64,000 bases of DNA from Arthonia radiata (Eukaryota > Ascomycota > Arthoniomycetes > Arthoniales > Arthoniaceae): NCBI GenBank assembly GCA_002989075.1, contig PSQN01000015.1, forward strand, positions 496,001-560,000, in the 5' to 3' direction. The notes beneath the pieces are model-generated. The model was not told where the DNA came from, made no database searches, and was given only the letters and a program-made list of their open reading frames with translations. The position numbers and the translations under genes were made by a program. Below, one piece after another: positions 4,544-63,727 of the stretch; the first letter of the stretch is position 1, and each line of letters opens with the position of its first letter.

Positions 4544-4839
4544 CGTGTTTCTGGGAAGCTTCCTGGAACTTAGACGGATGATCAATGAGCGGAAAATTTT
4601 GGGTGTTGGGGTTCTTTTGCCGTTAGGCATCAGCTCTTCCGAGAAGACTCGGACGAAAGGGACGGCACTGTCTAGCTGTACGATGCTGCTGCCTGCTGCC
4701 TTGCGTGCCACATCGACGCCGAGGACCGCTCATTTATGTCAGTGGATGCGGACAGGGTCTCGCAGGCAACGCTGCATGTCGGGGACCATGCATGCGAAGG
4801 CAGCGGATGAAACGTACGCCTGCTTGCTTGGTAGATCCA

Positions 4840-5776
4840 TGTTCGGACACTCCAGGATATGGGGGACACGAAGGGCCCAGGCGTTATACAAGCTGCAATG
4901 GCACTCTCAGAGGCACTGTTCATCCGGATGAGCGCCTCGGCCTGGCATCACGCCCTCAGACCCAAAGTTCAGGGGACACTGAACTTGCACCACGCACTCA
5001 AAGACCACGAACCTACTCTCGATTTCTTCGCCCTGACCTCCTCAGTCTCGAGCAGTGTGGGAACAGCTACAGAGTCCAACTACTGCGCAGCCAACGCGTT
5101 TCTGGATGCTTTTGCTAATTGGCGGCGTGGTCAGGGGCTCAAATGTATTTTCATTGGCCTCGGCATGCTATCTGAGGTTGGCTATCTCCACGAACATGAA
5201 GAGATCCAACAATTGTTGTTGCGCAAAGGCGTGCACCCGATTAACGAAGAGGAAATGCTTCACCTTGTCGAGATTGCACTTTTGGACGATCAACGGTTCG
5301 TCCAGACACCTGCTTACAAGACGGAAGATGTGTTTTCGCGCTCTGACGGCCACATAATCTCGGGTCTGGAACTCGTTGGCCTAGACAGGCAGCGCCATCG
5401 CGGATTCGAAGGGCACAGCCATGTGCTGGATGATCCGCGCGCTGCACTCCTTGCGCGAAACTACTTCGCGAACGAAGAAAAAGGGGGAGACAACACTGCT
5501 GCATCAGCTTTCAACAAAGGAAGACCTGTGCAACAGACTATGCGAGAAGTGGTAGCAAACAAGCTCTCGAACTTGCTGCTGGTGCCAGTGCAAGACTTCG
5601 AAGATGATAAGTTGCTGGCGGATTTCAGTCTTGACTCGATGCTGGCAGCTGAGTTCCGAGGGCATGTGTTTCGAACGTTGAAGGTAGATGTGCCGTTCAT
5701 GATAATACTGAGCCAGACGGCGAGTATCACAAGTCTGACACAATTGATCATGGAGAAGCTCGGTGACGGGCAGTGA
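4840..5776 (+). pseudogene. Truncated polyketide synthase: end of ketoreductase domain plus acyl-carrier domain
   Basis: The 305-codon frame from 4859 carries GPGVIQAAMALSEALF and RPKVQGTLNLHHAL followed by SSVSSSVGTATESNYCAANA, the second half of the psi-ketoreductase domain of highly reducing fungal polyketide synthases. A linker of about 90 residues leads to a carrier domain whose attachment site is in LADFSLDSMLAAEFRG (Ser of DSM carries phosphopantetheine). The frame stops a normal distance after the carrier domain, so the C-terminus looks natural. What is missing is everything upstream: a complete enzyme would need about 2,000 more residues, but a stop lies just before 4840 and the neighbouring SDR gene begins at 4543 on the other strand. 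I therefore call a 5'-truncated remnant, not a working synthase. Confidence 0.8.
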
Positions 5777-26217: not shown

Positions 26218-28606
26218 GGCGTTGCGACGGCGAAGAGGACTGGGGAGGTCGGAAGGAGGCGGTGCTAGGTGACCGGAGGTTTGAGAGTTGTTGAATCCAA
26301 AATTAGACGTGTTGGCGGTTGAGATTTCGGTTGGTGTTGTGAAAGAATGGGCTCGCTTGAGGCTTTGGTGGGGTCTTAAGGGCGGACTCGGGAGGCGCCT
26401 CGCGTCACGTGCGTCGTTTGACGCGTCAAGTCGATGAGGTGATGCTTGTTAGATATCTCGGCGGGCAATACAATGCAGCGTCGACGCGTGAAGATGGAAT
26501 CGCAATGCTTCAAACAAGGTGAAGCGTCAGGCAGAGACATCGAAAAGGCCCAGAACGGGTTAGGCAGCGGCCGGACCATGCCAAGATTATTCGCACTAGC
26601 ACCGCAGAATTCGCTCTAAGGCATAATTTTCATCCTCCACTACTTTCTCCTCTTCTCTTTCCCAACGACCCTTGCTCGACAAGCCGCATTCAAAGCTCAC
26701 AGGCAGAAAGATCATCTCCGGATGTCTTTCACTAAATCACGCTTTGGGAGAAAGTCCCCGGACATCCGCCGGCAGCGTACGCACCGTCTTGCGACGACCG
26801 CCCGCTGTACGTCGGAACGTGGAAACACGCCGCCATAGAAGCAGCTTCACGGCAAAGCGGCTCCATTCGCACCGCTGTGCACACTCGCCACGCTCTTCAT
26901 GACATCCGCCTGCATCGTTGCCGTTTGTACTCATCAGGAGAGGTCTGTGGCAAGCTGGTCGTACGATCTGACCCCGAAGCGGATGATGATATGAGTCTGC
27001 TTCACCCGGCCTTCGGGTTGGGTCCCAAGCTCTGTGAGTACGCCGGCAGTCCGCATTCATCGAATGGTGAGGAGGCACGGCCAGGAGCTGAGCGGGGTCT
27101 TACGAGATCACTGTTCGGATGAGGGATAGGGTTCAGGCTCTCTGCGAGTGTGCTAGAGGCGGTGTAAGCAGTTGATCTCTGATCGGCTGGTCCATCACCA
27201 TTCGTCGAAGTCGATAGTCATGCGGTTGCTTGATGTCCGTCTCTTTGAGGCAGCTCAAGTTACTCGACGGGGCTTATTCTCGAGGCAAGGGTACCGTTCA
27301 CCTTTTTTCCCAGGTCCGCAAGGGCATCGCTACTTGTCTGATCAACAGGATGGTGTTGCGCCTACGCTTGGTCGAACAAGCCGGACCTATGATACAAAAC
27401 GCAGCTCTGTTCAAGTGATGACAAAAGCAAAATAGAGTCAAGCACAGAGGGCGGCGGCTCAAAGTCCTGCTTCATTGTGGGTAGAGTTCGTGTCTGCCCG
27501 TTGACGAGCCATTTGCCTACGACGGTATCTGATGAACATCCTGCACAGCATTGTCTATATTTGTTATGATGTATTTGAGCACGAGTCGCATTCATCCTCC
27601 TTGAGGAGCTGAAGGGCACGAGTAGTGTCTGTCTGTATCTACGCGTCACACACCTCACGGGAATGGTTCGAGAAATGGATGTTGAGGTCGCGCTCGATTA
27701 ACTGTACATCACTTTAAAGATCTTCGAGTATTGTCTCGGTTCGTCCGGTGTACTTGCCTTGCCATGGACCTCCGGTAAACGGCAAGAACGACTACGAGAC
27801 GAGCAGTCGGTACGTCCTCACGTGCTGTCTATGCCTGGCCGTCTTTCAAGAAAGGTATTCAGCGCCTGCATAATCATCAGACGCAAGCCGTAGCGGTTTT
27901 CGCGACAATGTTGGCGTCCGTTGAATCCTGCGAGCCTTCCCAAACACCGATTGCGCTGTCGAATTATTTGCCTAAAATAGCAGGTGAAGATATGCTGTCA
28001 GGATTCATATTAAAGTCGACTCCTCCGCCCCTTTCTCTCCACCTTCGCAAGCGTCAAACACAACCCAAAATCCACGACAGCGGAGATTTCGAGGTTTTAA
28101 TTGCCCAGACTTCTGAATTACCCCACCTTCCAAAAGGCCCCTAAACATGTCGGGAAGAGTCAGATAGGCGCTCTGGACCTTGCAATACTGTAATCCGTAT
28201 CGATTGTGACTTTCTCGGCCAAAATACACCTACTTCATCTCATACATGCATGGAAGCTATCTGTGTAATCTATCTCAACGAGCTGCCCGTAGAACTCAAG
28301 ATGTACGTGATGTTCATGATTCCTCTCTGCATGCGGGCTATCTACGCTCCTTGCACATTCTGGCCACGGAACCGTCCCCGGGTTCTGAAACCGCGCCCTG
28401 GTAGTAAAGACTTGGCGGCGACTAGGAAATGAGAGACAGTGGCCAAAGGTAATTGCTTTGCTTGTCATGACTATGCGGCTCAATGGACATCAAAAGCATA
28501 TGTATTTGTCTCTTTCCTCACGATGGTGCTCTTGCTCCTCAGCCCACGGTCTATACCAGTTCATTTCTTACGCTCATTGTCATTCATTTGAAATCCATTC
28601 GACAGC
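26218..28606. other. Long gene-poor spacer
   Basis: 2.4 kb with only short, mutually overlapping frames. Upstream of RAE1 it contains its promoter; upstream of 28607 it contains the promoter of the secreted-protein gene. No repeat, RNA gene or element recognised. Confidence 0.45.
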
Positions 28607-35336: not shown

Positions 35337-37110
35337 CTACATAGTCAAAGTATAGTTCGCAGCGTTCCCCGCCACCCTCGGATAAAACTCAAACGTAAAT
35401 ACGCAGTCCTGCCCCGCCGCCACCACCGCCTGCACCGCCGCGCTCGTAATCGTCACCGAATCTGCATCCCAGCTGAACTGCGAGCTGTACGTCATGCGCC
35501 CCTGCTGCAGCGGGCCGAGATACTGCGTCCACGTGTCGATGAGGAAGGTGTCGTCGAAGAGTTTCGCCTGAACAGTCGCGAGCTGCGGCAAGCCTTTCCA
35601 CGTGATGGGGATGGTGAGGTCGATGCCGGCTGGGCCCGCAGAGGCGGCGTTGCTGGTGGTGCCGAGCTCGGGCTGGTCGTATTGGATGATTGTGGCGGTG
35701 AGGGCGGCGCCGCTGTTGAATTTGAGAGATAGAGTGGCTACGGTGCCTGGGGTTGTGGTGGCGGAGAGCAGAGTAGAGAGGTAGGAGGCTCGGTAGGTGA
35801 TGCTGGAGGCGGCTATGGTGTAGTCTGTGCCTTGAACGAGATCGCCGTTCGGTCCTGTAATTGATTGTAGAGTGTTGCCGTTGAAGAGATAGTTTAGCGT
35901 CACATCAGCTACATCGTCGCCAACCTTGTGGAAGATGTAGGCGTATGTGTCCTGGCTGACAGCATTGAGGTCTTCTGTGCTGTCGGCGAGACTGTTGGTC
36001 GTGCCCGCAACGGCATTTCGAAGGATGTCGATGGCGACTGGATCACGGAACTTATGGGCTGGACGGTCCAGTTGGTCGCCGCCATTATCCCAGAGCATAA
36101 TGGATGTGCTGTATTTCTTTGCTGTTCGCGCGAAGTAATCGTAGTACTTCCACCGTGCGGCTGTCTCGGTATTGGTCACTGACGGAGACCATTCGCCAAT
36201 GATGATCGGCACGTCGGTGAAGTTGTCGCGCACAATTGCCAGGTCAGTCTCCATGGCTTGCTTGTCTGCATCTGAGCCCCATATCGTTTTGCCCCAAGCG
36301 CTAAAGATGAAGTCGTAAGGGGAGTAGTAGTGGTACTGCACTGCCCATGGATTCGACATGCCGGCTGGCGGTTTCAGATACTGGTTGGTGAGATCACCGT
36401 TTTCTGACGGCCCGACAAGCGTGACAACGCGATCGCGATTAAAGCCACCAGAGTCAGCAAGAGCTTGTATGAACAGACCCTGAAGTTTGTTCAGCTCCGC
36501 ATATTGGTCTGGTGTTGATCCTGGCGGCTCGTTAATGGTTTCGAAAGCCAGCAGTGACGACTTGCAACCAAGCTTCTCGCCAATTTGATACCACAGGCGA
36601 TAGAACTTCTCTTCGATCATGGTGTAGTTCGCGCCTACCGCAGCAATATTCGCCCAGTCCGAGGCGTCATGGTGCACGTTGACGAGCGCATAGAGATCAC
36701 GCTCGATGACAGCGTCAACAACGTCTGAGACTCGCTGAAGCCATGTAGGGTCTACGTCCCATGATGGCGATCCGCCTGTAAAATGGAAGGTCCATGTGAC
36801 TGCGTAGCACGTAAGCGTCAACGTTTGAGGCGTCGAGTTGATATATGAGTAGCCTACCCGGCAGTCTGACGCTTTTGAAGCCGGCTTCCTTCACATCATC
36901 AAATGTCGAGAAGTCTGCAGTGTTGCCCCAGCTGCCCTCAGTCGGTATGGCGTCCAGCGTGTTTCCAAGGTTCCATCCTGGATTTGATCCGCTGACCCAC
37001 GTGTCAGCCGATATCTTGTCGAAGCTGCCAGCGCAATCTACAGCAAGAGAACTGGCAGCAGTGCCCAAAAGCAGAGCCGCTATACGTCTGATACAATGCA
37101 TGACTGGCAA
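35337..37110 (-). CDS. Secreted GH5 (subfamily 4-like) endoglucanase with CBM_X2 and CBM46-like modules
   Basis: Two exons (37110-36858, 36799-35337; GTAGGC donor, TACGCAG acceptor), about 571 residues. A signal peptide (CIRRIAALLLGTAASSLA) precedes GWNLGNTLDAIPTEGSWGN, the GH5_4 opening motif; the splice restores SVRLPVTWTFHF. Catalytic acid/base Glu is in FETINEPPGS and the nucleophile Glu in IIIGEWSPS; YHYYSPYDF and MLWDNGGD are further active-site blocks. After residue about 370 come two small modules: one with LNYLFNGNTLQSITG and QGTDYTI (CBM_X2, Ig-like) and a last one with PLQQGRMTYSSQFSWDADSV and FTFEFYP (CBM46-like). GH5_4 enzymes hydrolyse beta-1,4-glucans and xyloglucan. The three-module order is best known from bacilli. 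The start could be either of two methionines nine bases apart. Confidence 0.9.
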
Positions 37111-41416: not shown

Positions 41417-43075
41417 TCAGAACTCGATAATCTGCTCACCAATCGATAGCTTGGGTTCCGATCTTATAGCTGGCTTGCTTGTTTTAGCAGTTAGAGCCCT
41501 AGCTTGTCCCGTTCCTGCGTTCTCCGCGCGCCGAGCTTCCCTTTGATCGCCCTCCCGATCCCGCTTTCCAACCATTGTTCTTAAAGAGGAAGCCGTAACC
41601 ACGCCTCCTTTCTGCATCTGGCGACCATCGCCCTTCTTGCGCTTAAGTTCCTCACGTCTGCGCGCTTCTGATTGAATAGAATCGAGATCTTCAAGAGCTA
41701 GATCCCGTTCGGTCATTGCACGCGAACTAGCACGCACAAGCTGGTTAAATGCGTCCCAAGTCGGGTGAACCTGACGATCGGGACCTTGCAGGTACTGTAC
41801 CTGATCTACGATCGAGTTGACGTATTGATCTAGTTTTCGTACCGTTTGGGGAGTTTTAGGCGGCTTTTCCCAATCGGCATCTGGTTCCTGATAGGCTTTA
41901 TACAGGTCCGGTATCTGATCAAGTACCTTACTTGCATCTAACGGCCAGATTCCTGTTTTAGCAAAGCCTGAGCGTATAGTTGCCTCTTTAAACGTGTTCC
42001 TGCGTATCTCTAGAAGCTTATCAAGAAAGTCTGTCTTCCTAAACTTGGTTGCGCCGGAACGTACTGCCCGATCGAGCACCTGCGCGTGGTAGTGCTTCTC
42101 AACTTAGAAGATCGACACGTCAAGCGGCTGCATTAGGTGTGTCATATGCGCTGAGAAGCAGAAGATCTTAATCTTGTGATCGTCGGCATACTGCACGAAC
42201 TCTGCAGTAGCTTGGCCGGCAAACCCATCTAAAAGAAGCAGTCGATATGCTCCCTGTTGCCTCTTTAAGGTAGCTTTGTCGAAGTGCTGCAGGTACTCAA
42301 GCATAATATTATTATTAGTATAGCCTGATTCGGAAAGAGCAAGCATCGTCTCGCCTCCGATATCTGTTCTGGCCCAGTGTGCCTAGTGAACGACGCCTGG
42401 AAGCACTACAATTGGGTCTAGCTTCGATTCAGTTGCAGAGATCGTCTCAATTAGGGTAACTAGTGTACGATCTGTTGCGCTTGGAGCTGCTACTCTTGTC
42501 GTATGCGATCGTACTACAACCCAATTCGAAGCTCCTATCCCGACGCGGAAGCCTGCTTGGTCGATATTCCAGATATTATGCGGGTCGATCGCATACTCCT
42601 GTATTAGCTCCCCAAGCTCTTGATACCACTTTCGGATAGTATCTCGGTTCTGCGCCAGGTACCGCGTCATTTCCATTGGCTTCTGGCGTGCTAGCTTATA
42701 CTGAGGATGCCGAGCTAGCCATCTTTGGCACCAAGACTTCGAAACTTGGGGGAGAGGTGCGTCTGTACCTGCATTTGACGCTCGCGCTAGGATCGAATTG
42801 GCCGCCGATACGATCATACGACGGGTCGGAGCGAGGTAGATCTTCCCTAAGCGATCAATATAGCTACAGAGAGCTCTATCTTGGGCAGTTGTAAGCCGCT
42901 CGGGGGTATTATGGCGCTCCCAGATCGATCCGCGCTTCCGAAAGCGGGCATAAAGCGTCGCGTATAGGATATTATTATCGCGAGCCAGCTGCTTAAAGTT
43001 AAGCTTCTTCTTTAATCGATTGGTATGTAGAAGATCCAGGATCTTCTGTTCCTGTTTCTGTAGATCTCGTGCCAT
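41417..43075 (-). pseudogene. Pogo/Fot-type DDE transposase with two in-frame stops
   Basis: About 552 codons on the minus strand from MARDLQKQEQKILDLLHTNR at 43075. Domains in order: a Psq-type helix-turn-helix (LNFKQLARDNNILYATLYAR), a CENP-B-type DNA-binding half (SKSWCQRWLARHPQYKLARQ), then the DDE_1 catalytic core with NIDQAGFRVG (first Asp), LLLLDGFAGQATAEFVQYAD (second Asp) and HLMQPLDVSIF (third Asp), and an Arg/Lys-rich tail. The three catalytic acids look intact. Stop codons lie at 42385-42383 (TAG) and 42106-42104 (TAA) with the same frame continuing across both. Both are C-to-T explainable (CAG to TAG, CAA to TAA), the type of change left by repeat-induced point mutation, but two sites are too few to prove it. 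An in-frame methionine at 43174 lies within the terminal repeat and is less likely as start. Confidence 0.9.
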
Positions 43076-43113
43076 ATCTGGAAGTTTAAAGCGTAGGAAG
43101 ATGGTAGGGAGGT

Positions 43114-43250
43114 GAATCGATCTCGTGTGACCGGAGATTTCGTATAAGCGTGGGGTGCTAGCTTCAGCTAGCACCGACGAATGAGGAAACCCGAAGCGGA
43201 ATAGCGTAAGATTCTATGTCCGATAGGACCGAGTGAGGAGGGTGCGGGTA
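43114..43250 (-). repeat. Right terminal inverted repeat of the pogo/Fot element
   Basis: 137 bp including the TA, reverse complement of the left end with one mismatch. Confidence 0.95.
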
Positions 43251-49505: not shown

Positions 49506-51242
49506 CTACTGATGCACCCTCGCACCAATCTCCCAGAAGAACTCACACCGCTCCCTAGTCAGCGCATCCAGCCCTACGCTCTCACTCTCGCTCCCACCCT
49601 CACCCTGTACAATAAGCCTCTTCTCCGCCCCTGCCGGTCCTACCTCCTCCCACTCCGCCGCCCCCTCAGCCTTCAATCCATTCGGATCCAAAGTCAGCAC
49701 AAAGCTCGTCCAATACCCCTGCATCAAGCCCACGATCCCCTCATTAATCTGACCCGCCTCATACGACTCCGGCGCGCCTCCGCCATAGATGTTGTCGGGC
49801 CCGAAGATGGCATTCACCTCCGTCGTATGCGGCGCGCCCAGGCCTTCAGCAAGATCATCAGGGTCCGTGACGTTGTAAAGGTAGTTCCAGGATTTTCCGC
49901 CCGTGCTGCTGGCAAATATTTGCGAAGCATGGATCCCCGGGCACGTGTACCGCATGTCCCCGTAGACCTTGGCGATGTGGCTGTAGTAGTCGCTGAAGTT
50001 CGCACGGTAGGTTTCGTTGACGGGACCGAGCAGATCCGGGACATTGCTGGGTGTGTACAGCGTGTTCAGGCGCTGAAAGTCCGCCAGTGAGAGCAACGAG
50101 AATTGATTACGTAGGAAGGCATTGCTCTGCGAGACGTTCGCGGTGGTCTTCGGTACGAAGATCGAGCCACCGTTGGCGTCGTCGCCGAATATCGTGGGGA
50201 CGGGGATGAGCTTGCACTCGTTGAGGAGGTTGTAAGCATAGTCTTGGATGAGGTCGTCGTCGAGGGTGGGGCCGTAGAGGTAGAGCGGTTTAGCAGTGCC
50301 GCCGGGGAAGGGGGAGGTGACGTTATTGTAGCGCTGGAAGTCCTCAGCGGAGAGGGAACGTAGGCAAGCGAGGGTGCCATCGTCGGTAGGGTCGACAGTG
50401 GTGACGTTGCTGCAGCCGGTGGCGATGACGAGGTTGTCGTAGGCGAATTGGCTGGCGTCGCGTGTGAACTGCGTGGGGAAGCTTTGGCTCTCTGCTGCTG
50501 CGCCGACGAAGAGGCCGAGATCTTTACCGCCGTATGCGGTTAACAGTTGCACAACGCTCTGTGCGCCAGCTGAGTCTCCGCCGATGACTACATGGTGAGG
50601 ATCACCGCCGAATGCTGCGATATGCTTCTGGACCCAGTCTAGCGCGGCGTAGTGGTCCTTCAGGCCGTTGTTCAGACTGGGGACTTGAGCGCCTGCGAGG
50701 AAGCCGTACGGCCCGACGCGATAATTGAACGTGACGACGAGCATCTGCATGTCCGCTGCTTGAATAAGTCCGGAGCCATTGTTGTTCGGGTTCGAGTCGG
50801 TTGCGTAGCCACCTCCTTGGATGAAGAAGAACACTGGTAGAGCAGAGTCCTTCGTGGCGCCGCTTGGGGCGTACACATCCAGGAACAGGCAGTCTTCAGA
50901 TTGAGCAGTGAAATTCTGCGAACCAACGGCGAGACATATCGGGCCATGCTGCACGGTAGTTGGTGAGAAACCAACGCTGCCGTTGTGCAGTAGGGGTCAT
51001 TGATATCTTACCTTGTCCGCGTCTTGTACGGTATCGCTTGCTGGAGGCTCTTGAGGAGCAGCGAAGCGAAGATCACCCACGGGCGGCGCTACAAACCTCA
51101 TACCAAGCCATTGAGACACGCCGTTTGGATTAGCAGTCCCACGATATGATGTATAGGTCAGGTCCACGAGCGGATCGACCGCGAAACAAGATGTAGACAA
51201 TGTCAGTAACAGGGGCAGATACATGTTGAGTCCAGTATGCAT
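49506..51242 (-). CDS. Secreted type-B carboxylesterase/lipase, two exons
   Basis: Alpha/beta-hydrolase hydrolysing carboxylic esters outside the cell. Exon 1 (51242-51012) gives a signal peptide (MYLPLLLTLSTSCFA) and YTSYRGTANPNGVSQWLGMR with FVAPPVGDLRFAAP. A GTAAGA intron (51011-50949) joins in phase to exon 2 (50948-49506). Motifs: SEDCLFLDVYAPSG, IQGGGYATDSNPNNNGSG (oxyanion hole), VIGGDSAGAQSVV (catalytic Ser), and GAPHTTEVNAIFGP (catalytic His); VNETYRANFSD lies in the region near the third acid. About 557 residues, normal for the family. The methionine at 51224 is an equally good start. Ester specificity cannot be read from the sequence. Confidence 0.92.
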
Positions 51243-51817
51243 GATGGCGCTCTTACACTACAAGAGGTACGTTCCAGCAAACATAGTAAGGAAGGGCAGC
51301 GGCATCAAATCGAACTGGTCAGCGCTATGCGTGCTAGAAAGATCCCCGTGATGAGTCTCGGCATTCAACTACACACCGTGGTTGGCTGATTCAATTGGTT
51401 GACAGCAACGGCCTTGCAAACATGAGGAAGCTGCGGAGAATGCTGTGGAGCGCCGTCGTGAGGAGCAATGGTGTTGTTGGGTTCTTCGGCAGCAATTGCC
51501 GCGGCTAGGATAGGATGAGCAGGGGAAGATATTCGTTAGCGTCATGCTAGTGCCACTTTGTACTAGCGCTCATTTCCTGGGTAGGTACCTATATCCGCAC
51601 TCACACACTCCATCTCCAAAGAAATCCAGTACGGCCTGCAGCTGAGCGTCCATTAGAGCAGAACATGCTCGCCCCCTAAATGGCTCGGAAGAGATCTCGG
51701 ACGACGCTGTGAACGCGCTAGCGTCCGTGTTCCAGTTGACTCTTTAACCGTTCGCGGTCAATCGGCTGTGGTAAGTGGTGAACGGTAGCACCTTTGTGAG
51801 AGTTGTCAGATAAGTAC
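51243..51817. other. Spacer between the carboxylesterase and dioxygenase genes
   Basis: Upstream of the carboxylesterase. Nothing recognised. Confidence 0.5.
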
Positions 51818-53000
51818 TCAGGATGAAGGCGGCGTGCCACTTGGCGGTGCACCCGTCATTCTTCCAGTAGGCGGTGTACCTGCCATTCCACCACTCGGCA
51901 TCGGCCCACCCACGCCCCCACCCATACCCCGACCGCTTCGCCCTGCAGCAGCAGGCACACTCGTCGGATCAATCGCAATGTTGATGAGCCCAACGAAGCC
52001 GACAGTGACATTGTAGCCCATGCTCCTCATCTCCACGAACGCATCATAGGACGTAGTGTTCTGCTGGCCCTGAATGACTTGGTCCACAGTATTGAGAGTG
52101 AGTTCATTGGTATCCAAGGTATACGGGTATTTGGTATTGATTCTAGTAAGAGTTTCTTGCTGGAAGAACATCTGACCGGTGTGGGCGACGGCGCCAGAGC
52201 CCGTGGCGAGGGTCCAGTTGGCGAGGGTGGTGTAGTTGACGTAGGCTTTGACGTGGATGTGCTGGGCGCGGCCGGCGTACCAGCCAGGGACTATTGTGAG
52301 CACCATAGCAAATAATGTTAGTTCCTCCTGCACGGGATTACTATGGACCTGAGAAGTGGCATACTCTGCGCTAGACCATAGTCGTCGGTCTTGCGGACAC
52401 CGCGAAGCTGCGTTTCGCCCACCGTGTCTTCTGCTTCCATGTTAGAGTAGACGCCTGTCGCGTTGGCACTCCAGAAATCAAGAACGACGTCCTTGATGGG
52501 GACGCATGTGCGGGCGTCTGTTACTTGGATATCGAGAAGGAGTGGGAAGCCGGCTTGGCCTTCACGGACGTCGTGACGTATGAGGGAGCCATTGGCGTCT
52601 TGCATGTGAGTTGTCAGTTCGTTCGCCCTTAGCAATGGGTTTCAATACTGTGCAACCCATAAAATGTACCTTCCTCGCCCTCTGGCGTTAGAATGCAACT
52701 GGAGCTGGAACTGTCTGAGCCGTCATACACCCAGTCACGCGGATAGATGGCGCCTCGAGTACTGAAGCCCATGGCCTCCAGATGGTTATCAATGAGCGAG
52801 TCGCGGACCTCAGCGCGCTTCTCATGGATGTCACGGAGGGCCAAGCGGTTGCCGCACGAGGATAACGCACGTCTCATCTTGGTGTGATGGGATGCACGAA
52901 AGGCACGCTCAAACGGGCTCTCAGGCTTGCCGTGGGCATTTATAAGCTTGAAAGTCAGGAGCAAGGCTGCAGTCAAAGTTTTAGCGATGTAGGAAGGCAT
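51818..53000 (-). CDS. Secreted intradiol ring-cleavage dioxygenase-like protein, three exons
   Basis: An extracellular member of the catechol/protocatechuate dioxygenase superfamily, using non-haem iron. A signal peptide (MPSYIAKTLTAALLLTFKLI) starts at 53000. Exon 1 ends at 52670, exon 2 is 52598-52365 and exon 3 is 52290-51818 (GTACAT and GTATGC donors). Exon 2 has AGFPLLLDIQVTDARTCVPI and VVLDFWSANATGVYS (Tyr ligand region); exon 3 has PGWYAGRAQHIHVKAY with the Tyr and two His iron ligands. About 345 residues, ending in a Gly/Pro/Met-rich tail (GGPMPSGGMAGTPPTGRM) common in these secreted forms. The exon 1/2 joint is the least certain. Such enzymes can open catechol rings of lignin- or plant-phenol-derived compounds; direct substrate unknown. 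Confidence 0.88.
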
Positions 53001-54205: not shown

Positions 54206-55889
54206 TTATATCTTCCGTCTCATCCTCCTGTACCTACCTTCCTACTATGTTAGTCGGAATGTGATAAAAGCCATATACCTTATTAATCGTGCTGGTCTTT
54301 AAAACTAGCGTCCCCTTTTTAATTTTTCTTCGAGTTCTTTCCATTTCTTGCGAAGATCGCAATATTCCTTCGACATTCTCAGGCGCGAGAGGTGATTGCT
54401 CAGATGATGTTAGCAGCGGGAGATGTACCTTACGGGAGCAGTAGCGAGTGGTATGAAAGTAAGTGTGGTCTGCAGAAGACGGAAGGGTGTCTTTGAATAA
54501 TGTTGTACGCAAATGCCACGGTGGTCATTGGCTTTAAGCTTGCAAGAATGCGTCGAAAATACGTAGGGCTGACTCATGGGGACCGCTACTGCCACATGCA
54601 TCGTCGATAGGACACAATGGAGGCATGTCTGCGAGGGAGAAGGCGGCCAACTTTCATCAGTGTGAGGCCTACACGCCCTGCACGGGACACGACTTTTGAT
54701 CAAAGCAGTTTCGAAAATCGAATACACTAAGGAGTGATACGTTACACGACCAAATTTCGAAATTGTTCAGTTGAGGTCCATACCGCGAGCGACAACGCAA
54801 GTGCTGGCCATCATCCCATGATCATTGCACACTTCATCCTCGGCAATAGCTCGCACTATTCGCTGGGACAAGCGAGGCAACAAATCGACGACCATCTCGT
54901 ATTGATGCCGGATGAAGACATGGCAATTTAGTAATGCCAACGTTGCTCCCATGCTACTTGGCGGTCGCTACAGCAACGACCACTTTCGGCCCCCATGTCA
55001 TTACAGCAATCAAGTCGGTTTTGCGACCCTTCTTAGCCCCCATTTCTCCGTCGCGATTTTGCACTTCCACACAGCTACGTCCACGTGGTCCGATGACTGA
55101 GTCCGATCTCACGACTTTGCCAAGCTTGCCAGACTCCCCAAACTTGCGAGCCGGGCGGCTCAGGAAACGCGGGCCGTTGAGAGCCTTGAGTCATGCTCCC
55201 ATCTTGGGCGTTGCTTTGGGATTCCGAGTCAAACTCGGGTCTGTCATCTTGAACACTTTACCCTCTTCTTATCCTCGGTGATGCACGGAGACTGCCAAGC
55301 CGTTGCACAGGAAGACAAGCGACGGTAACGTCGCACACGGCACTATTCTCGTCCAGCTTCATGTGGTGAGCCTCCAAATGTCCCCTACCTTCACCAGACC
55401 TTTTGCTCTCACTCAGTTTGGCGAATTCTTCGCTCAACACTTCAAGAATGCGCTGGCCCGTACGGAGGCGGAGAACGCTCTTCTACGAGATCGGCATTGT
55501 CTTCTCAGACTTCTGCACCAGCACTTGATGCTACAAGTAAAACACATGTATTGGACAATGAAAGTGATCGGCATTAATATTGACTCATAGAGAAACACAT
55601 AAGTGTCATTCTGTGCCACACCCCCGCAGCGGCGTCTTCAGGGCGCAATGAATCACCGCGCGCTCTGCTCCATGCAGCTGGCTGCTCTTCGCCTCATCCT
55701 TTGCCTTTCATACAACACGGAAGCCATCGGTCTCCTTTGAGATGCTCTCGGTGTACCGACTCTGTTTGCCCATGAGCCAGCGGAGGCCTTCTGCCGGTTG
55801 ATCTCCTGTTGCACACCCTGGGCGTCCTTCTAATGTTCTACGACCCGTCAGACCATCGGTTTTAGTTCCCTGGTGACGACTACTACCGC
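54206..55889. other. Gene-poor stretch
   Basis: Short frames only. Nothing recognised. Confidence 0.45.
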
Positions 55890-56051
55890 TTACTTCATGA
55901 CGTCTTGCAGTTCCCTTTTCAAGCCCTTGTATTTCTCTGTCGAGGCCGCCCTCGTTTCCTCCGTCTGGGCCTTGTGGCTGTCTTTGAGCGCCTTTCTCAT
56001 GTTGAGGAACAGCTTCCATCGGCGGTCTTCGAGGTCTTCGTAGCTGTGCAT
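55890..56051 (-). CDS. Possible very small charged coiled-coil exon
   Basis: A 53-codon frame, MHSYEDLEDRRWKLFLNMRK, then ALKDSHKAQTEETRAASTEK and YKGLKRELQDVMK, is highly helical and charged, unlike chance sequence. A GTAAGC donor overlaps its stop (exon could end at 55895), and a downstream acceptor near 55835 leads to another open but unconvincing frame. No start context or partner exon could be fixed, so this may be one exon of a gene. Confidence 0.35.
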   Translation of the reverse strand: MHSYEDLEDRRWKLFLNMRKALKDSHKAQTEETRAASTEKYKGLKRELQDVMK

Positions 56052-56739
56052 GATGAAATATACCTCTCGAACAGTACGCGAATGGGACGTGTCTCACTGT
56101 ATAGCTAACAGGTGATGCTTGTGTAGTGGTGGTAGTTTGTCAGAAAATGTTGCATTCATGGTGATCTTCACCAGGTCATAAAGTAGAAAATAATCACGGC
56201 GAGACGGTTCGACGCGGCTTGCAGCGAATGCCACACCGCCGGATACATGCGCAAATCGTCTACTGGCGACAGACCGACACAACGAGGTTCAAGCACTTGC
56301 AGCGCGCGATCTTACTGGGCATACGCTTGAAGCAGGGGCCCGGTTCCATGCGTGAAGTCCAACATCACAGGTGCTGCTCAAACCCTCCACATACCAGACT
56401 CCGCATTTTCGGAAGGCCTACGTATGCCGCACAAAGCCGAAACCTTACTTTGCTCTCTCACCCTGCTTCTTGTATTTCACCGGCACCAACTAGTGGCGAC
56501 TTGCAGATCAGCAAAATCTGATCAAAGCGTAATGCTCGGGTCAGGCCAGCTAAGTGTTCTTCTCGGTGCCTTACTATTACTGTATTGTTATATGTCAGCT
56601 TTGCCAGCTGTATATGTTTACTGTTGCAGCGGTAACACCCATCGCTTCACATCATGAGGTCTAATCTGGTTCTCATTCTCATGCTGCGCTTGGACAAGGA
56701 CAGACTTGTCAACATTCCCTCAACGGCGACGTCCTGCCC
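56052..56739. other. Intergenic
   Basis: Spacer downstream of the rhamnosidase stop. Nothing recognised. Confidence 0.5.
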
Positions 56740-58957
56740 TCAAAATTCAAGCACAATCTTCGTGTGACCTCCCTTCATCTTTTCCAGCCCAAAGAATGGT
56801 CCTTGCGTCGGCGGCAGCGGCACAAGTTGCTCATCAACATGTAGCTGTGCTGTGCTCGGGTTGCAAGAGAATGTCGGCACATAAATCGTCCCCTCCGTAC
56901 CTTCTGGCGCACTTACATTGAGCTCAAATCGGCGTGGCGTCTCTTGGATTGTCCAGCTCACGTCGAGCTTTCCGATCAGAACATTGACACCGCCCTCGGC
57001 GCTTGTCAGCCCGGAGCCAGCAATTACGGGTTTGATCGCCCAGTCGCCATCTTCCAATGACACCTCGATGCGCGTGGCTCTAATACCTACGACATCATGC
57101 ACAAGGCTATACGTCGGCCCCGTCGACCAAGCGTGCGCATGACTGATGAAGCTCGGCGCACCCGTGTAGAAGCCATAGTTCAGCGACCCGTTGGCGGCGT
57201 AGCCTTCGATAAAAGAGGCTTTGCTAAACGCCCGCTGCATGTATCCCCACTGGGTCCTTGTAAGCTCGATGGGGTAGGAGGCGTTACCCGTGGCTTCCGC
57301 GACAGCAAATTGCGCGATGAGCTCGTGCGACGTGATGTAAGGCGAAATAGAGCCAGGCAGCTCGGCGCTGGGCGCTCCATACGGCGTAAGGCGCTGAGCG
57401 AGTTTGCTGGTTATGCTGGAATCTTTACTGGCACTGTCTGTCAAACCGAACTCGACGGTGAAAGCATTACCGTCTTGCGGGTGAACCATTGCGCCTGCAG
57501 CTGTCGTATTGTCTCTATACAGACCTGCACTCTGGTCCCAGAGCTGATCGTTGAGAGCAGACTTGATTTTGTCGGCCATCGATATCCAGCGATCCGCATC
57601 AGCACCTGGAGTTATCGAAGGATAAACTGTCACGAGTATTGCAAGATTGCGGAGTGTTTTGTAGTAGAGAGCATTGAGCGCAGTGTTCTTTCCGCCCTGC
57701 CCAACGCGACCCCAGTCGTTAGTACGTGTGCTGTTGAAAAGGCCATCATCTTGAACGAAGTCATACGTCGCTCGTATGCCGGTGTTGATCTGATTCCAGT
57801 ATTGCTGAACAAAAGTGGTGTCGTTGCTGATGAAAGCATATTCCACGAACGCATCCATAGTGTACAGATGATCTTGAGTTTGGGTCAGCAAAGTGGCGCA
57901 GTACTCAAGGAGTCTGTAAGTACATACAGGTGTCGCTACCATACGGGGGAATGACGGGTACAATCTTAAGCAGGTCGCCCAGAGGTGAGCCGGCATATGG
58001 GAAATATCCGTATGTGCTTGACAATAACGTCATGTCTTGCAGCGCAATACATGCTTGGAGGGTGTTCCGGACGGCAATCAGAGTCCCATAGTTCTGCGCC
58101 ACCAGTGCACTGCGCAGGCCGATGCTGAGATCGCCTGCCCAAGCATTACGGTCGCGCTTTGCGCCGTCCACGAGGAAGACGTCGTTGCTCGTTAACCCAG
58201 TCGCTGTTGCATCTTGAGACCAACCGGAACCAGTAGCGGCATAGACATGATTGACAGAAGTATTCGCGGCAATTGAACATAGCTGTAGTGTATAGGCTCC
58301 TGCATAACAAATGCTGTTAAGCAGCTCGTCGGAGCTGTGGAAATAGCCAGTGTAACTGTCAAGTTGACCATCCGGCAAATTTGGAGCAGCGTTGAAGTAG
58401 ATCGATTCAAGACTCACTGCTGTACTAGTTGTAGCTGGGATCTGATCGTTTAGGGACAGAGTCAAGTACCGAAATCCGCCACGCGACCATTTGGAAGGGA
58501 CCTCATACGATCCGTTAGAGAGCAGCGGCAGGAAGACTGTACCATCGGGGATGCTGTAAAGCGTACTTTGATCGGAGCTTGGGCCAATATATTGAATGGA
58601 TTCGGAGTAGGATATACCAAGCCCTTGGCAGAAGAGCGAGCAAGATAGCGAAGGTAAGCCATCAGCGCTGCACCCAAAAGCTCCGCAGTCAGAGTTGTGA
58701 AAAGTCAGCGTCGGTTGGCCGGCGATTTCCTGACCGAAGTCGAAAGTCACAGACGCGTTGGGGCCGGTCAGTTGAAACGTGTCAGGTCCATAAGTAGGGA
58801 TGGAAGTGACATTGCCGGTTGTCTGAAAGATGCTATTCGGCTTCACCGTCCTGAAGGTGGGTGAAAAAGCGTACTGCTGATGCGGTGTGACGGTGGTCGA
58901 GGCAGTGATGGACAGGCTAGTCAGTAACGTCAGACATGCAAACTTGTCGCGGGCCAT
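56740..58957 (-). CDS. Secreted GH78 alpha-L-rhamnosidase, two exons
   Basis: Removes terminal rhamnose from rhamnogalacturonan, flavonoid glycosides or similar. Signal peptide MARDKFACLTLLTSLSITAS. Exon 1 (58957-57928) carries VTFDFGQEIAGQPTLTFHNS, the YVPSKWSRGGFRYLTL block and HVYAATGSGWSQDATATGLT, and ends in PPYGSDT. A 55 bp GTATGT intron (57927-57873) restores the family motif SDTYH (GSDTYHLYTMDAFVEYAF) in exon 2 (57872-56740), which has TRTNDWGRVGQGGKNTALNA, SFIEGYAANGSLNYGF, and ISHAHAWSTGPTYSLVHDVV, hallmarks of the six-hairpin catalytic domain with its general acid/base residues nearby. A C-terminal beta domain ends at the stop. About 720 residues. It lies 0.4 kb from the Zn2Cys6 gene. 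Confidence 0.92.
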
Positions 58958-59360
58958 GCTGCAGACTGCTCAGTGCTGTACTTGCCAACGAGCATCATTG
59001 CGAAAGAGTGCATTTTGCACACAGCTATATAGCATCGCTCCAAGCATTATCGGCCCAAGAGCCGAGCTTGAACTAAGGCGTCCTCATGTTACTAGGCCGG
59101 CTTGAAGAGACGAAAGGGCCGCTTGAATTGAGGTACGAGCAAAGCTCCTCATCTACAAATCAGAACCGGTCTAGCGGCCAGCTCGTACATTTGATGACCA
59201 GGTTGGGCCTAGCGTAGGTTTCGCGCAAGGCCTGAATGTGCGTCGATGTCAGAAATTGCCTTCATCGCAAATTGAGAACTCTCTCTTGTCATCGCGATCA
59301 TGCTCGAGCCGACACTGCGCAGTGGTTACCAGGGCATTAGCCAAAGTACGTGGTGATTTC
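58958..59360. other. Spacer between rhamnosidase and regulator genes
   Basis: About 400 bp, presumed rhamnosidase promoter. Direct inspection shows no convincing CGG triplet pair, the usual target form of Zn2Cys6 proteins. Confidence 0.4.
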
Positions 59361-61006
59361 CTAGATGTCGATGACACGTTTCTCAAATGTGTTGCTACCA
59401 ATTTGCCGGTTCATCGTGAGGATCACTCGAGTCCCAACTTTGCCGGCCTCCTCATATTCGTAGAAATCGACTTCAGCCACTCTATGTTCCTGCGTTGGCT
59501 TGAAGGTGCAGTCGTCATTATAGATGTACTCCGCGTTTGTGATGTGCTCTTCCTCGGCCGCAATAACGGCCTGAGAGGCTTTAGCCAGCGTCCTCGCATC
59601 CCAGATGTCCTCTAGAGGGGGTACTCGCTGCAACAGTCGCACAGCCTGGCGTCGAATCGTCGGGTGCCTGCAAAGACGCGCAACGTAGTATAAGGTGGGT
59701 ATTAGATGAGTATCGACAGAGAACACCCGTGCGACCGAGGCTGCGTTTTGCGCCTTGTCTTGCGTTTCGAGGAATGCTTCGACGTGGTCGACAATGTTCT
59801 GAAAGTTTGAAGCGTATCCGTCGTAATCCATCAGAAAGGCGAAGCCGCGATATGCTTGGACGAACACGTGAGAGAGATGATATCTAGATCGCAGAAGGTT
59901 ACAGCAGCCACGGACATGAATGGTTTCCGTTTCCGCATTGCGTTCGATGCCGTCAAATGCGGATGCCCAGGACTTTAGTTGACACAGAAGTGCAGCTTGC
60001 TCAGACCCTTTCGACACCGTATCTTTGAAAGCGCTGGTATCAATCCTGTTTATGAACGCCATAGTACGGGAAGAAATGCGATTGATTACATTGCGCGCTT
60101 GTTCCAGATTGGTGATGTTAAGATGCTCGTCAGGCCCAATTTGAAGACACAGGTTTTGCACCTCGACTGATGCGTCGATGCGGGGCCGCCCGTACATGAC
60201 ATTGGAGAGTGTGAGTTGTAGCAAAGGCTCGTCCAGGCCGAGCTGTCCGCTAGCGCGCTTGTATATATGGTCTCGTCCTGTTAACATCAGGCTTTGGCGA
60301 AGATGTACCAACATGGCTGATCTTTGATTTTGCAGCGACTCATAGAGAGATGCAAGTAGACAAGCCAGCAGTATCTCGTGTGCTGACAAGCTACCTTCGG
60401 ACAAGCCGTTTCTAAGCTTGTTCAACGCTGCAGTGTAGCATTCCATTGCGACGGCTGCGGCTCCAAGGTGAACATCGCCTTGCTGATCATTAACGTCTTT
60501 CGCTCGTATCGCCAAGCGCTTCGCTACTGCTTCATGCTGTCCTCCAATTGCAGTGACCATCTCGCGCAGTAAGGGTTGAGTCGATGCACAGTAAATCAAG
60601 CTTCTCACCCATTGCTCGGGCCGGAAAACGCCTCCAAGAGCCGACAAAGAGTTGCAGCGAAAATAATCCAATGCTCGCAGCTGCTTGTCAGGCAGCGCTT
60701 GTCTCGGCACTGATTGTGGTACGCCATCAAAAACAACACTTCGAAAGCGGTGGGATCTCACTTTGGGTTCTATCATCCGTTTCTGCGCCGCTGTATCAGC
60801 TGTGTCGCCATATCGACAAATGCGCTCCACTTTTAGGCAGCGTGCGCATGTAGGTCGAGTCTCGTCGCATTTCGCATGTCGCTGTCTTGATACTTGTCAG
60901 ACAGTAGGCCGAGCGACTTCAAGAAGACGATCCGAGCTTACTTGCAAGTTAGACATCCCGACCTGCGAGCTTCATGCCTTGCCCTAGAGCGTGGAGCGAC
61001 TAGCAT
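59361..61006 (-). CDS. Zn2Cys6 (Gal4-type) fungal transcription factor, two exons
   Basis: DNA-binding regulator. Exon 1 (61006-60942) starts MLVAPRSRARHEARRSGCL; a 56 bp GTAAGC intron (60941-60886) joins in phase to exon 2 (60885-59361). Spliced, the zinc cluster reads CLTCKQRHAKCDETRP-TCARCLKVERICRYG, i.e. C-x2-C-x6-C-x6-C-x2-C-x6-C, the exact Gal4-type spacing. The remaining 480 residues are helical (LLACLLASLYESLQNQRSAM, LLRSRYHLSHVFVQAYRGFA), the middle-homology/transcription-factor region of this class. About 529 residues. It is embedded between the GH78 and CE12 genes on the same strand, suggesting it regulates them, which is inference. A more distal start at 61126 exists but adds an unlikely segment. 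Confidence 0.92.
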
Positions 61007-61371
61007 GCCCCATGCATACTCACTTTTGTGACAGACCTCACTGGAACTTGATTTCGTGTGGCGAGTCGTGAAATCAACTGAAGACGGACGAAAGGAGTGC
61101 ACGAGAGACCAAAACATGGGAGTCACGTATTTTCCGCTTTGGGTAATTTTTCTGTGCGGACCTTGTTCATGATTTCATCTCTGCTTCTCGGCATGTCTCC
61201 TTGAACTTCACAACGAATCGGAACACTTCTGCAGCATTTCAAGTCGCATTGCATGTAATTGAGCATCACTGCGGAGACGTTGAACACCACAAGAGCATCA
61301 AAAAGGTGCAAACACCAAAAACCAAAGTCGTTTTTGGCCAGGAGAAAGACTCGTTTGTACTTTGCTTGAGA
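61007..61371. other. Spacer between regulator and CE12 genes
   Basis: About 365 bp, presumed promoter of the regulator. Nothing else recognised. Confidence 0.45.
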
Positions 61372-62361
61372 CTATTTCGCATATGCCTTGAGAGTGCTGC
61401 TCGTACCCTTCAAAGCAGTGATGAATGCCTGCGCGACGGTCGTGGCGCCAGCTGGACTTGTATGTGTATGGTCGTTGGGGTAGTAAGAATCGACCGTCTG
61501 TGCACCTGCAATCGTGTCAGCATCGAGATGTGAGAAAGCAAGACACACCATTCGATCAGCTAAGATTGGCAGGTCCATCAAGCGCGACTTACCCAACTTC
61601 TGATAGGCATCCGCAGTCGCCTGTCCATGGTCCACAAAGGTCGCGCCAGTTGCATTTGCTGCGTCGCGGACGTAGCCAACGAAGCGACTCGCGCTGTAAG
61701 TGAACGTGCCAGTCTCCCACACATTGTTCGGCGTAGCGGTCGAGAGGACAACATTGGCACCTTTGGATTGGAAAAGCTTGGCCGCGTTGACGAGATAAGC
61801 CTCATAGGTGAGTACTGTCTCCGCTGTGCCACTGTTGAGAAATCTCTATCAGCTTCTGCTGCTTCAAATGCGAGATAAGCAAGGAAAGCTCTTACTTGTA
61901 AGTCGTCTGGCACGTCGAAGCGTAGTTGCCGTTCACCGGGTTGCAGTCCGTGCGTCTGAAGGCGCTTCATCAGCAAAGTCCACGGCAAGATCGACGCGAA
62001 TGACCCACCCATTGTCCATCGGCGTCAGACTGCCGCCATCATTGTGTCCAAACTCAATCACGACATAGTCGCCTTGCTTGACGCTTTGCGCCATGGCGGT
62101 GAAGCGTCCTTCGCGAGTGAACGAGCGTGCTGAACGACCAGCGATGGCGTTGTTGATGATCGGTATGTTCATGTCGCTGACGACAGCTGCGCCCCAGCCT
62201 TCCGTTCCATCATTGTTGCCGCTTTTCACCATGGTCGAGTCCCCGGCCAAGTAGAGTGATGGTGCTGCTGCGGCGGCTGCGTCACTTGCAGGTGTGGGCG
62301 CTGCGCTCACGCTCGAGACTGCAAGAGCGAGCAGCCCTAAGAGTAATGAAGTCGGTGCCAT
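61372..62361 (-). CDS. Rhamnogalacturonan acetylesterase (CE12, SGNH hydrolase), four exons
   Basis: Removes acetyl groups from rhamnogalacturonan-I. Signal peptide MAPTSLLLGLLALAVSSVSA. Exons: 62361-62009, 61955-61896, 61831-61593 and 61505-61372, with GTGGGT, GTAAGA and GTAAGT donors; all joins keep phase. Catalytic blocks: LAGDSTM (Ser of the GDS motif), NAIAGRSARSFTREG, VIEFGHNDGGSL (Asn/His oxyanion), and YPNDHTHTSPAGATT (Asp/His). About 261 residues, normal for the family. The spliced middle reads NGRTDCNPVNGNYASTCQTT then YNGTAETVLTYEAYL. Located between the Zn2Cys6 gene and the CE5 gene, same strand. Confidence 0.94.
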
Positions 62362-62958
62362 GGCTTATGTTAGTGGCAATTCAGGTAGTGCGAGTGAGTG
62401 AATAATCGGTCAATGGGGGGTCAAGGCTGTGGTATGATGGGCATCTCTTGCCATCTTTAAAAGCAGCCATGCTACTATGTCTTACTTTTCAGCCTCCCCA
62501 CAAAGCAATTTGTGTTCGGCAGCTGTAGGTCACCCGCTTATTTACGGTGCGTCTCATCCATGTTTGAGCATGCCTGCTTATCCGTTCTAGGCAAGTCGGC
62601 GAACATTGACTCGAGCGCCACTGTAGGACGGTCCTACCTCAGCAGTTTTGTACGCATCGATCAGCTTCCAGAGAGAAATACTTGCTACTTCCACAAGCAA
62701 ATTATAGGCACCGTGGTATTAACATAAAAAAAAGTTGTGGGGTTGTGCCTTCCATGTTGCATATCTGCTTGATGCATTTAGCGTGTAGAAGGAGGATGAA
62801 ACGCGCCCTTGTACCGATGTAATGAACTCATCTACAGGCAAAAGTCAACAAAGAACAGAGTCCAAATTCCGTTATTCTACGCCTCGCTATAATACATGCT
62901 GAGTTAACAGAAGTCCCCTCAATCTGATCAGATAGGAAATAACTCCGACGCAAGACGA
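62362..62958. other. Spacer between the CE12 and CE5 genes
   Basis: About 600 bp, presumed promoter of the CE12 gene. Nothing else recognised. Confidence 0.45.
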
Positions 62959-63727
62959 TCAGTAGTGTTTCGGGCCTCCCGCGTTGACTTTATCCACAAC
63001 GAATTTCGCAGCATCCGCGTTGTACTTGTCAAAGTAGCTTAGGTGCACCTGAAGTACCTCGCCGCTGGCACAAAACGGATCCCCGATGTCGCAGTATGAC
63101 TTGATCTTGTTCTGGTAAGGTGCGCATGCGGCAGTGTCCACGCGTGGGAAGATCTATGAAAATATTCGCATCAGCGTTATCATCTTGTAAACCGCTCATT
63201 TCATGACTTACACTCAGCTGCGCATCAGTAGCATTACCCGCATTGTACGGCTGACCCACCGCTCTCGATGGATCACCGTATACAACAATAGCTTTGATAT
63301 TCTTCCCGTACTGCGCAGCCAGAGGCGCCGTCGTGGTGAAGTTCGTTTCAGACGTCCCGCAGAGCGCGTCCAGCGTGATCTGCCCGCCTTGCGACCAGCC
63401 CAGCAGGACGATCGGGGTGTTGGGGCACGACGTGGCGTATTGCTGTAGCTCGGCGAGGACGGCTTGCGTGCCTGCTTCCTCTGATGGCTGGTACGGGTCG
63501 AGTATTGCTGGGTAGACGGTGGCGTACTCGTCGGAGCCGGGGATCTGCTGCGCGATGAGGGTCGAGAGGCTGCCGATTTGGCCAGCCCCTTGTACTTCAG
63601 TGGAGCCACGCGAGGAGATGATGTGAGCGCCGATTGGGCATGTTGAAGTGTTTTGGCGTGGCCATAACTTGGAAGGGGATCCGACGGCCGTGGCGGCGAG
63701 CAAGGATGAGGCGATGACGGTTTTCAT
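62959..63727 (-). CDS. Secreted CE5 esterase (cutinase or acetylxylan esterase), two exons
   Basis: Signal peptide MKTVIASSLLAATAVGSPSK. Exon 1 (63727-63212) has CPIGAHIISSRGSTEVQGAG and the nucleophile motif VLLGWSQGGQITLDAL (G-x-S-x-G); a 58 bp GTAAGT intron (63211-63154) joins in phase to exon 2 (63153-62959), with YCDIGDPFCASG (catalytic Asp) and QVHLSYF (catalytic His). About 236 residues, typical of CE5. The GWSQGG form and the GSTE motif near the start lean towards acetylxylan esterase, but cutinases share them. Confidence 0.93.

Follow-up and report, generated by a model that had tools for sequence, protein, structure and literature searches.

The window analyzed here, 64,000 nucleotides of Arthonia radiata DNA (contig PSQN01000015.1, positions 496,001 to 560,000), carries at 56740-63727 four adjacent minus-strand genes: an alpha-L-rhamnosidase of glycoside hydrolase family 78 (GH78), a Zn2Cys6 (Gal4-type) regulator, a rhamnogalacturonan acetylesterase of carbohydrate esterase family 12 (CE12), and an esterase of family CE5. 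The question raised by this locus is whether the regulator is a dedicated switch for the enzymes around it, as the catabolic-cluster layout proposed in the initial annotation would imply, or whether the genes merely lie close together. In our favored reading, held with somewhat better than even confidence, the locus is a small and ordinary neighborhood of secreted enzymes acting on plant matter, with a regulator orthologous neither to the rhamnose regulator RhaR nor to the pectinase regulator GaaR and with enzymes that would be induced in trans. Control of its neighbors by the local regulator is unproven.

Translation of the region from 54 to 64 kilobases (kb), with GT..AG introns placed by hand, yielded full-length proteins for four complete genes, transcribed in the order CE5, CE12, regulator, GH78. 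The CE5 gene (62959..63727) encodes 236 amino acids in two exons and the CE12 gene (61371..62361) 261 amino acids in four exons, interrupted by one and three introns, respectively. The regulator (59361..61006, 529 amino acids) is encoded by exons 61006-60942 and 60885-59361 around a single 56-nucleotide intron, and the GH78 enzyme (56740..58957, 720 amino acids) by exons 58957-57928 and 57872-56740 around a single one of 55 nucleotides. Intergenic gaps amount to 403 base pairs (bp) between GH78 and the regulator, 364 bp between the regulator and CE12, and 597 bp between CE12 and CE5. From the CE5 ATG, beginning at 63727, to the GH78 stop codon, ending at 56740, the group fills exactly the limits assigned before; the right edge of the window follows 273 bp upstream of CE5, the far side of the group lying outside. 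Together with the Pfam and PDB matches given below, these models bear out the gene identities, order, single strand, and coordinates of the initial annotation, and at the level of sequence the four frames are confirmed as real genes rather than chance open frames.

The GH78 protein matched both the (alpha/alpha)6 catalytic domain PF17389 (34.7 bits, cut-off 24.5) and the C-terminal domain PF17390 (30.8 bits, cut-off 22.1). Its best structural matches, spanning residues 25-675, were PDB entries 8iwd and 8iwf (E=1.4e-85), which are one sequence in the PDB listing, and 8hmm (E=1.9e-79); 8iwf is N12-Rha of Aspergillus niger and 8hmm is AoRhaA of Aspergillus oryzae (PMC11901676, in the passages cited). 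These nearest solved relatives cover nearly the whole protein and share with it the motifs DGAKRDR..W..D and FIEGY, found here as DGAKRDRNAWAGD at 264 and FIEGY at 564. In the printed alignment, the acidic residues D264, D269, D276, and E566 lie within motifs that the two Aspergillus chains also have. The cited part of PMC3312857 gives D567, E572, D579, and E841 as the catalytic acids of a solved bacterial GH78 enzyme; matched to this numbering by eye, the second acid is Asp rather than Glu, likewise in the Aspergillus chains. The same source divides fungal GH78 proteins into a short group of 597-661 amino acids, including RhaA, and a long RhaE-type group of 861-932, and by length and best hits our protein is nearer to the short (N12-Rha/AoRhaA) group. 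Identity to 8iwd amounts to 229 letters, or 35% when the 651-residue query span is counted and 38% when the chain span is. N12-Rha was assayed on the flavonoid diglycosides hesperidin, rutin, and naringin, and the passages cited contain no assay on rhamnogalacturonan-I (RG-I). From family and catalytic motifs, the GH78 enzyme would free terminal L-rhamnose from plant rhamnosides such as flavonoid glycosides and perhaps RG-I ends.

The CE12 protein matched PF00657 and, over residues 35-258, the rhamnogalacturonan acetylesterase 1deo (E=5.7e-76), which we take to be the CE12 enzyme RGAE of Aspergillus aculeatus. GDST, GHND, and DxxH are the catalytic motifs of the SGNH fold, and all are kept here (GDST at 40, GHND at 105, DHTH at 229) in a near full-length match departing from 1deo by ordinary sequence divergence alone. 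By family, the enzyme is probably RG-I-specific and, its motifs being intact, would remove acetyl groups from the RG-I backbone. The CE5 protein matched PF01083 (E=3.5e-42) and carries GWSQGG, YCDIGDPFC, and VHLSYF, motifs that bear the Ser-Asp-His triad. Its best PDB match was the acetyl xylan esterase 1qoz (E=8.4e-29), with cutinase and cutinase-like chains at 9e-09 or weaker; by score it thus appears acetylxylan esterase-like rather than a classic cutinase, and family and motifs suggest action on acetylated xylan or another ester. The N-termini of both esterases look secreted by eye. Hence the proposal that GH78 and CE12 act on the same polymer stands for CE12, which is of RG-I type by family, but found no support for GH78, whose nearest solved relative was assayed on flavonoid diglycosides, and an extension of this substrate to CE5 was not borne out.

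The gene between GH78 and CE12 most likely encodes a regulator. Its zinc cluster (Cys 18, 21, 28, 35, 38, and 45; CX2CX6CX6CX2CX6C) matched PF00172 above cut-off and has the same spacing as those of RhaR, PDR-1, and TRC1. Its intron falls between Cys2 and Cys3, and the remainder of the protein is one open frame. Searched alone, this remainder gave PF11951 at E=0.083 and 12.2 bits, below the cut-off of 21. The fungal transcription factor domain PF04082 was not found by Pfam search (E up to 0.1 for the regulator, E up to 10 for the remainder alone, where the HMMER filters drop most matches above ~0.1 in any case). Structure prediction from the single sequence covered the 511 residues of the main open frame, without the first exon; it had a mean predicted local distance difference test score (pLDDT) of 39.3 and was uninterpretable. 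Scans of viral_contigs with the regulator and with CE12 confirmed no relative.

Published descriptions of the known regulators, taken from the parts of the sources cited, differ from this protein in several respects (those on N12-Rha, PDR-1, the RhaR site, and GaaR/GaaX are among PMC9653530, PMC5469009, PMC5847190, PMC5468973, PMC6528562, and PMC7607812). Aspergillus nidulans RhaR has 830 amino acids with PF04082 at 263-533, which its authors call truncated (PMC4245848), and PDR-1 has 971 and likewise a fungal transcription factor middle homology region, compared with 529 amino acids and no PF04082 by Pfam here. RhaR introns lie between Cys3 and Cys4 and 21 amino acids past the cluster, the latter position reported as conserved as far as Cryptococcus (PMC4245848), whereas the window regulator has its intron between Cys2 and Cys3 and none 21 amino acids past the cluster. 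The genes of RhaR and PDR-1 adjoin lra catabolic genes, unlike the GH78 and CE12 genes adjoining the regulator here; this difference is weak alone given that a non-clustered rhaR class exists too (PMC4245848). A true RhaR orthologue should be recognizable, because Neurospora and Aspergillus share 60-61% identity in the RhaR/PDR-1 middle regions, although yeast TRC1 is only 23% identical there. GaaR likewise is a Zn2Cys6 protein, but it has 740 amino acids, its gene adjoins gaaX in most Ascomycota analyzed, and its binding sites were not found in the upstream stretches given below. As for the fungal transcription factor domain of GaaR (cd12148 at 139-518), the window regulator showed the zinc cluster only in a search confined to Pfam models. 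Orthology to RhaR or GaaR was rejected on four features, compared by published descriptions rather than alignment: length, domain, intron place, and immediate neighbors. The initial annotation had claimed analogy to RhaR, not homology; its canonical Gal4-type zinc cluster is indeed present, with no homology to RhaR or GaaR evident beyond it.

How unusual the arrangement is depends on which part of it is counted. We used a random-placement model with an assumed 12,000 genes, 350-600 genes for carbohydrate-active enzymes (CAZymes), and 150-350 Zn2Cys6 genes, plus a case resembling Trichoderma reesei with 228 CAZymes among 9,350 genes. Per genome, it predicts 0.5-6.0 four-gene runs with at least three CAZymes, 0.13-0.92 Zn2Cys6 genes with a CAZyme on both sides, and 0.01-0.19 four-gene runs in which one Zn2Cys6 gene accompanies at least three CAZymes. 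For a pattern picked after being seen, the full four-gene layout is thus somewhat unusual, while three CAZymes in close proximity would be nothing special. In T. reesei, 71 of the 228 CAZyme genes are found in 20 loose clusters, and CAZyme and Zn2Cys6 genes are placed non-randomly (PMC4812632, in the part cited), so that the view of clustered fungal wall enzymes as uncommon was overstated. Like these clusters, our group brings at least three CAZyme genes into proximity, but it is tighter and includes a Zn2Cys6 gene. The closeness of the enzyme genes would nevertheless be of the loose kind common among fungal CAZyme genes.

An adjacent regulator need not be required for joint control of GH78 and CE12 genes, because A. 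niger RhaR controls five GH78 and two CE12 genes: all seven were down in the rhaR deletion strain, a sixth GH78 gene, An18g04800, was not (PMC5701360, in the part cited). The idea that such enzymes share regulation is therefore plausible as real biology. By analogy with A. niger, the enzymes of our locus would most likely be under the inducing control, in trans, of a pectin or rhamnose regulator whose gene lies elsewhere, and the authors of the T. reesei study, in the passage cited, likewise consider that an independent location of the regulator gene xyr1 can be advantageous (PMC4812632).

Several observations weigh against this favored reading. The regulator lies directly between two enzymes able to share a substrate, which is suggestive, and four-gene runs of the complete type are rare under random placement (0.01-0.19 per genome, as above). 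Zn2Cys6 regulators are also described as often located with the gene cluster under their control (PMC4245848, in the part cited). Furthermore, the known sites of RhaR and GaaR lend no support to control in trans by these two regulators. The RhaR site CGG-N11-CCG and the GaaR site CCNCCAA, as given in the cited passages, have 17 and 55 matches, respectively, in the whole 64-kb window, but none of these falls in the 1-kb upstream regions of GH78, the regulator, and CE12 or in the 273 bp available for CE5. For Neurospora crassa, the passage cited likewise reports that no PDR-1 site was found at ce12-1.

The strongest competitor, which we regard as possible though doubtful, is a true mini catabolic cluster, in which the Zn2Cys6 protein would be a dedicated activator of GH78, CE12, and perhaps CE5 and respond to a rhamnose-bearing plant polymer. 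It gains from the direct flanking of the regulator by GH78 and CE12 on one strand across short gaps of 403 and 364 bp, and from the finding that in A. niger one regulator serves genes of both families (PMC5701360, in the part cited). Moreover, the A. niger GH78/GH28 pair with the consecutive locus numbers An18g04800/An18g04810 rises jointly on gaaR overexpression, according to the cited passages. The promoters argue in the other direction. No 8-base word was common to at least three of the four intergenic promoters (0 found, 0.41 expected), with that of CE5 limited to 273 bp by the window edge, and a single ten-mer was common to two of them (CE12 and GH78; 1.97 expected). Similarly, no CGG dyad of the same type and spacing was common to even two of the four, a level of sharing reached by random sequences in 167 of 300 trials. 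The absence of shared words and dyads argues against a simple shared site, with a site of a different type being possible, and the earlier suggestion of a local activator driving its neighbors thus found no backing in shared promoter sites. In addition, the genes are tandem rather than divergent, CE5 is not of pectin type, and the 45 Pfam-scanned protein entries, some overlapping, which represent part of the window's frames, included no sugar transporter and no intracellular enzyme of rhamnose or galacturonate catabolism. Literature searches brought up no published GH78-regulator-CE12 cluster among the papers listed, as judged by titles and abstract openings, which does not prove its absence from print.

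A bolder form of this idea, in which a RhaR/GaaR-independent local Zn2Cys6 activator belonging to an unassigned subfamily drives a compact GH78-CE12(-CE5) cluster and the rhamnose-bearing polymer is sensed via a new inducer route, seems to us unlikely. If local control were true, it would add a pathway-specific pectin/rhamnoside activator outside the known set of RhaR, GaaR, and AraR and shed light on the tuning of wall degradation in plant-associated fungi; if false, the locus is one more loose CAZyme neighborhood.

Two further genes on the same strand, neither clearly a member of the group, bear on another explanation. A type-B carboxylesterase gene (COesterase; 49506..51257, 5' end by eye), ~5.5 kb from GH78, matched PF00135 at E=6.3e-64 on 49506-50996. 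It is followed by an intradiol-dioxygenase-like gene with approximate boundaries 51818..53000, which matched PF00775 on 52318-52641 with 29.1 bits (cut-off 27.3). In the ~3.6 kb between the latter and GH78, no intact gene was seen by eye, and three pieces searched against Pfam matched nothing above cut-off; minus-strand protein-like stretches with shifting frames and internal stops at ~54750-56110 are possibly a decayed gene. The locus might be directed at plant phenolic glycosides and not at pectin: a GH78 enzyme of flavonoid-diglycoside type would strip rhamnose, and the carboxylesterase and dioxygenase-like product would act on the freed phenolics. We consider this improbable. N12-Rha and AoRhaA are the nearest solved GH78 relatives, and the flavonoid diglycoside assays of the former, described in the passages cited, would agree with it, as would the two genes matching PF00135 and PF00775, which lie at 49.5-53 kb on the same strand, and a CGG-N14-CCG dyad upstream of both of them and of CE12. 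This dyad, however, is missing upstream of GH78, and random sequences had one dyad in common among three of six promoters in 141 of 300 trials, making its sharing no more than chance. The stretch of ~3.6 kb without a recognized gene separates the two groups, CE12 has no part in such a pathway, and no ordinary by-eye placement of the first intron of the dioxygenase-like gene keeps the usual Tyr-bearing segment.

It is highly improbable that the regulator represents this fungus's own RhaR or GaaR, relocated beside its target genes, the Zn2Cys6 class and RhaR cysteine spacing being set against length, the PF04082 domain not found, intron place, immediate neighbors, and absent binding sites, all of which disagree.

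Elsewhere in the window, the ratio TpA/ApT stayed below 1 in every 2-kb step, giving no strong signature of repeat-induced mutation. A Tc5-type transposase DNA-binding domain at 42383-43213 on the minus strand probably belongs to a transposon remnant or a domesticated protein. An RNase MRP RNA gene was recognized at 26669-27290 on the plus strand (Rfam, 90.9 bits), its ~622 nucleotides against a model of 266 positions probably reflecting large insertions. The minus-strand gene at 35337-36890 encodes a GH5 cellulase with a CBM_X2 domain and the close solved relative 9l3d (E=7.8e-179); transfer of this gene from bacteria was considered and dropped, no bacterial relative being confirmed in genome_contigs. 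Near the left edge, 4835-5776 on the plus strand holds the end of a polyketide synthase, with ketoreductase and phosphopantetheine domains above cut-off and a highly-reducing-type acyl carrier protein just below.

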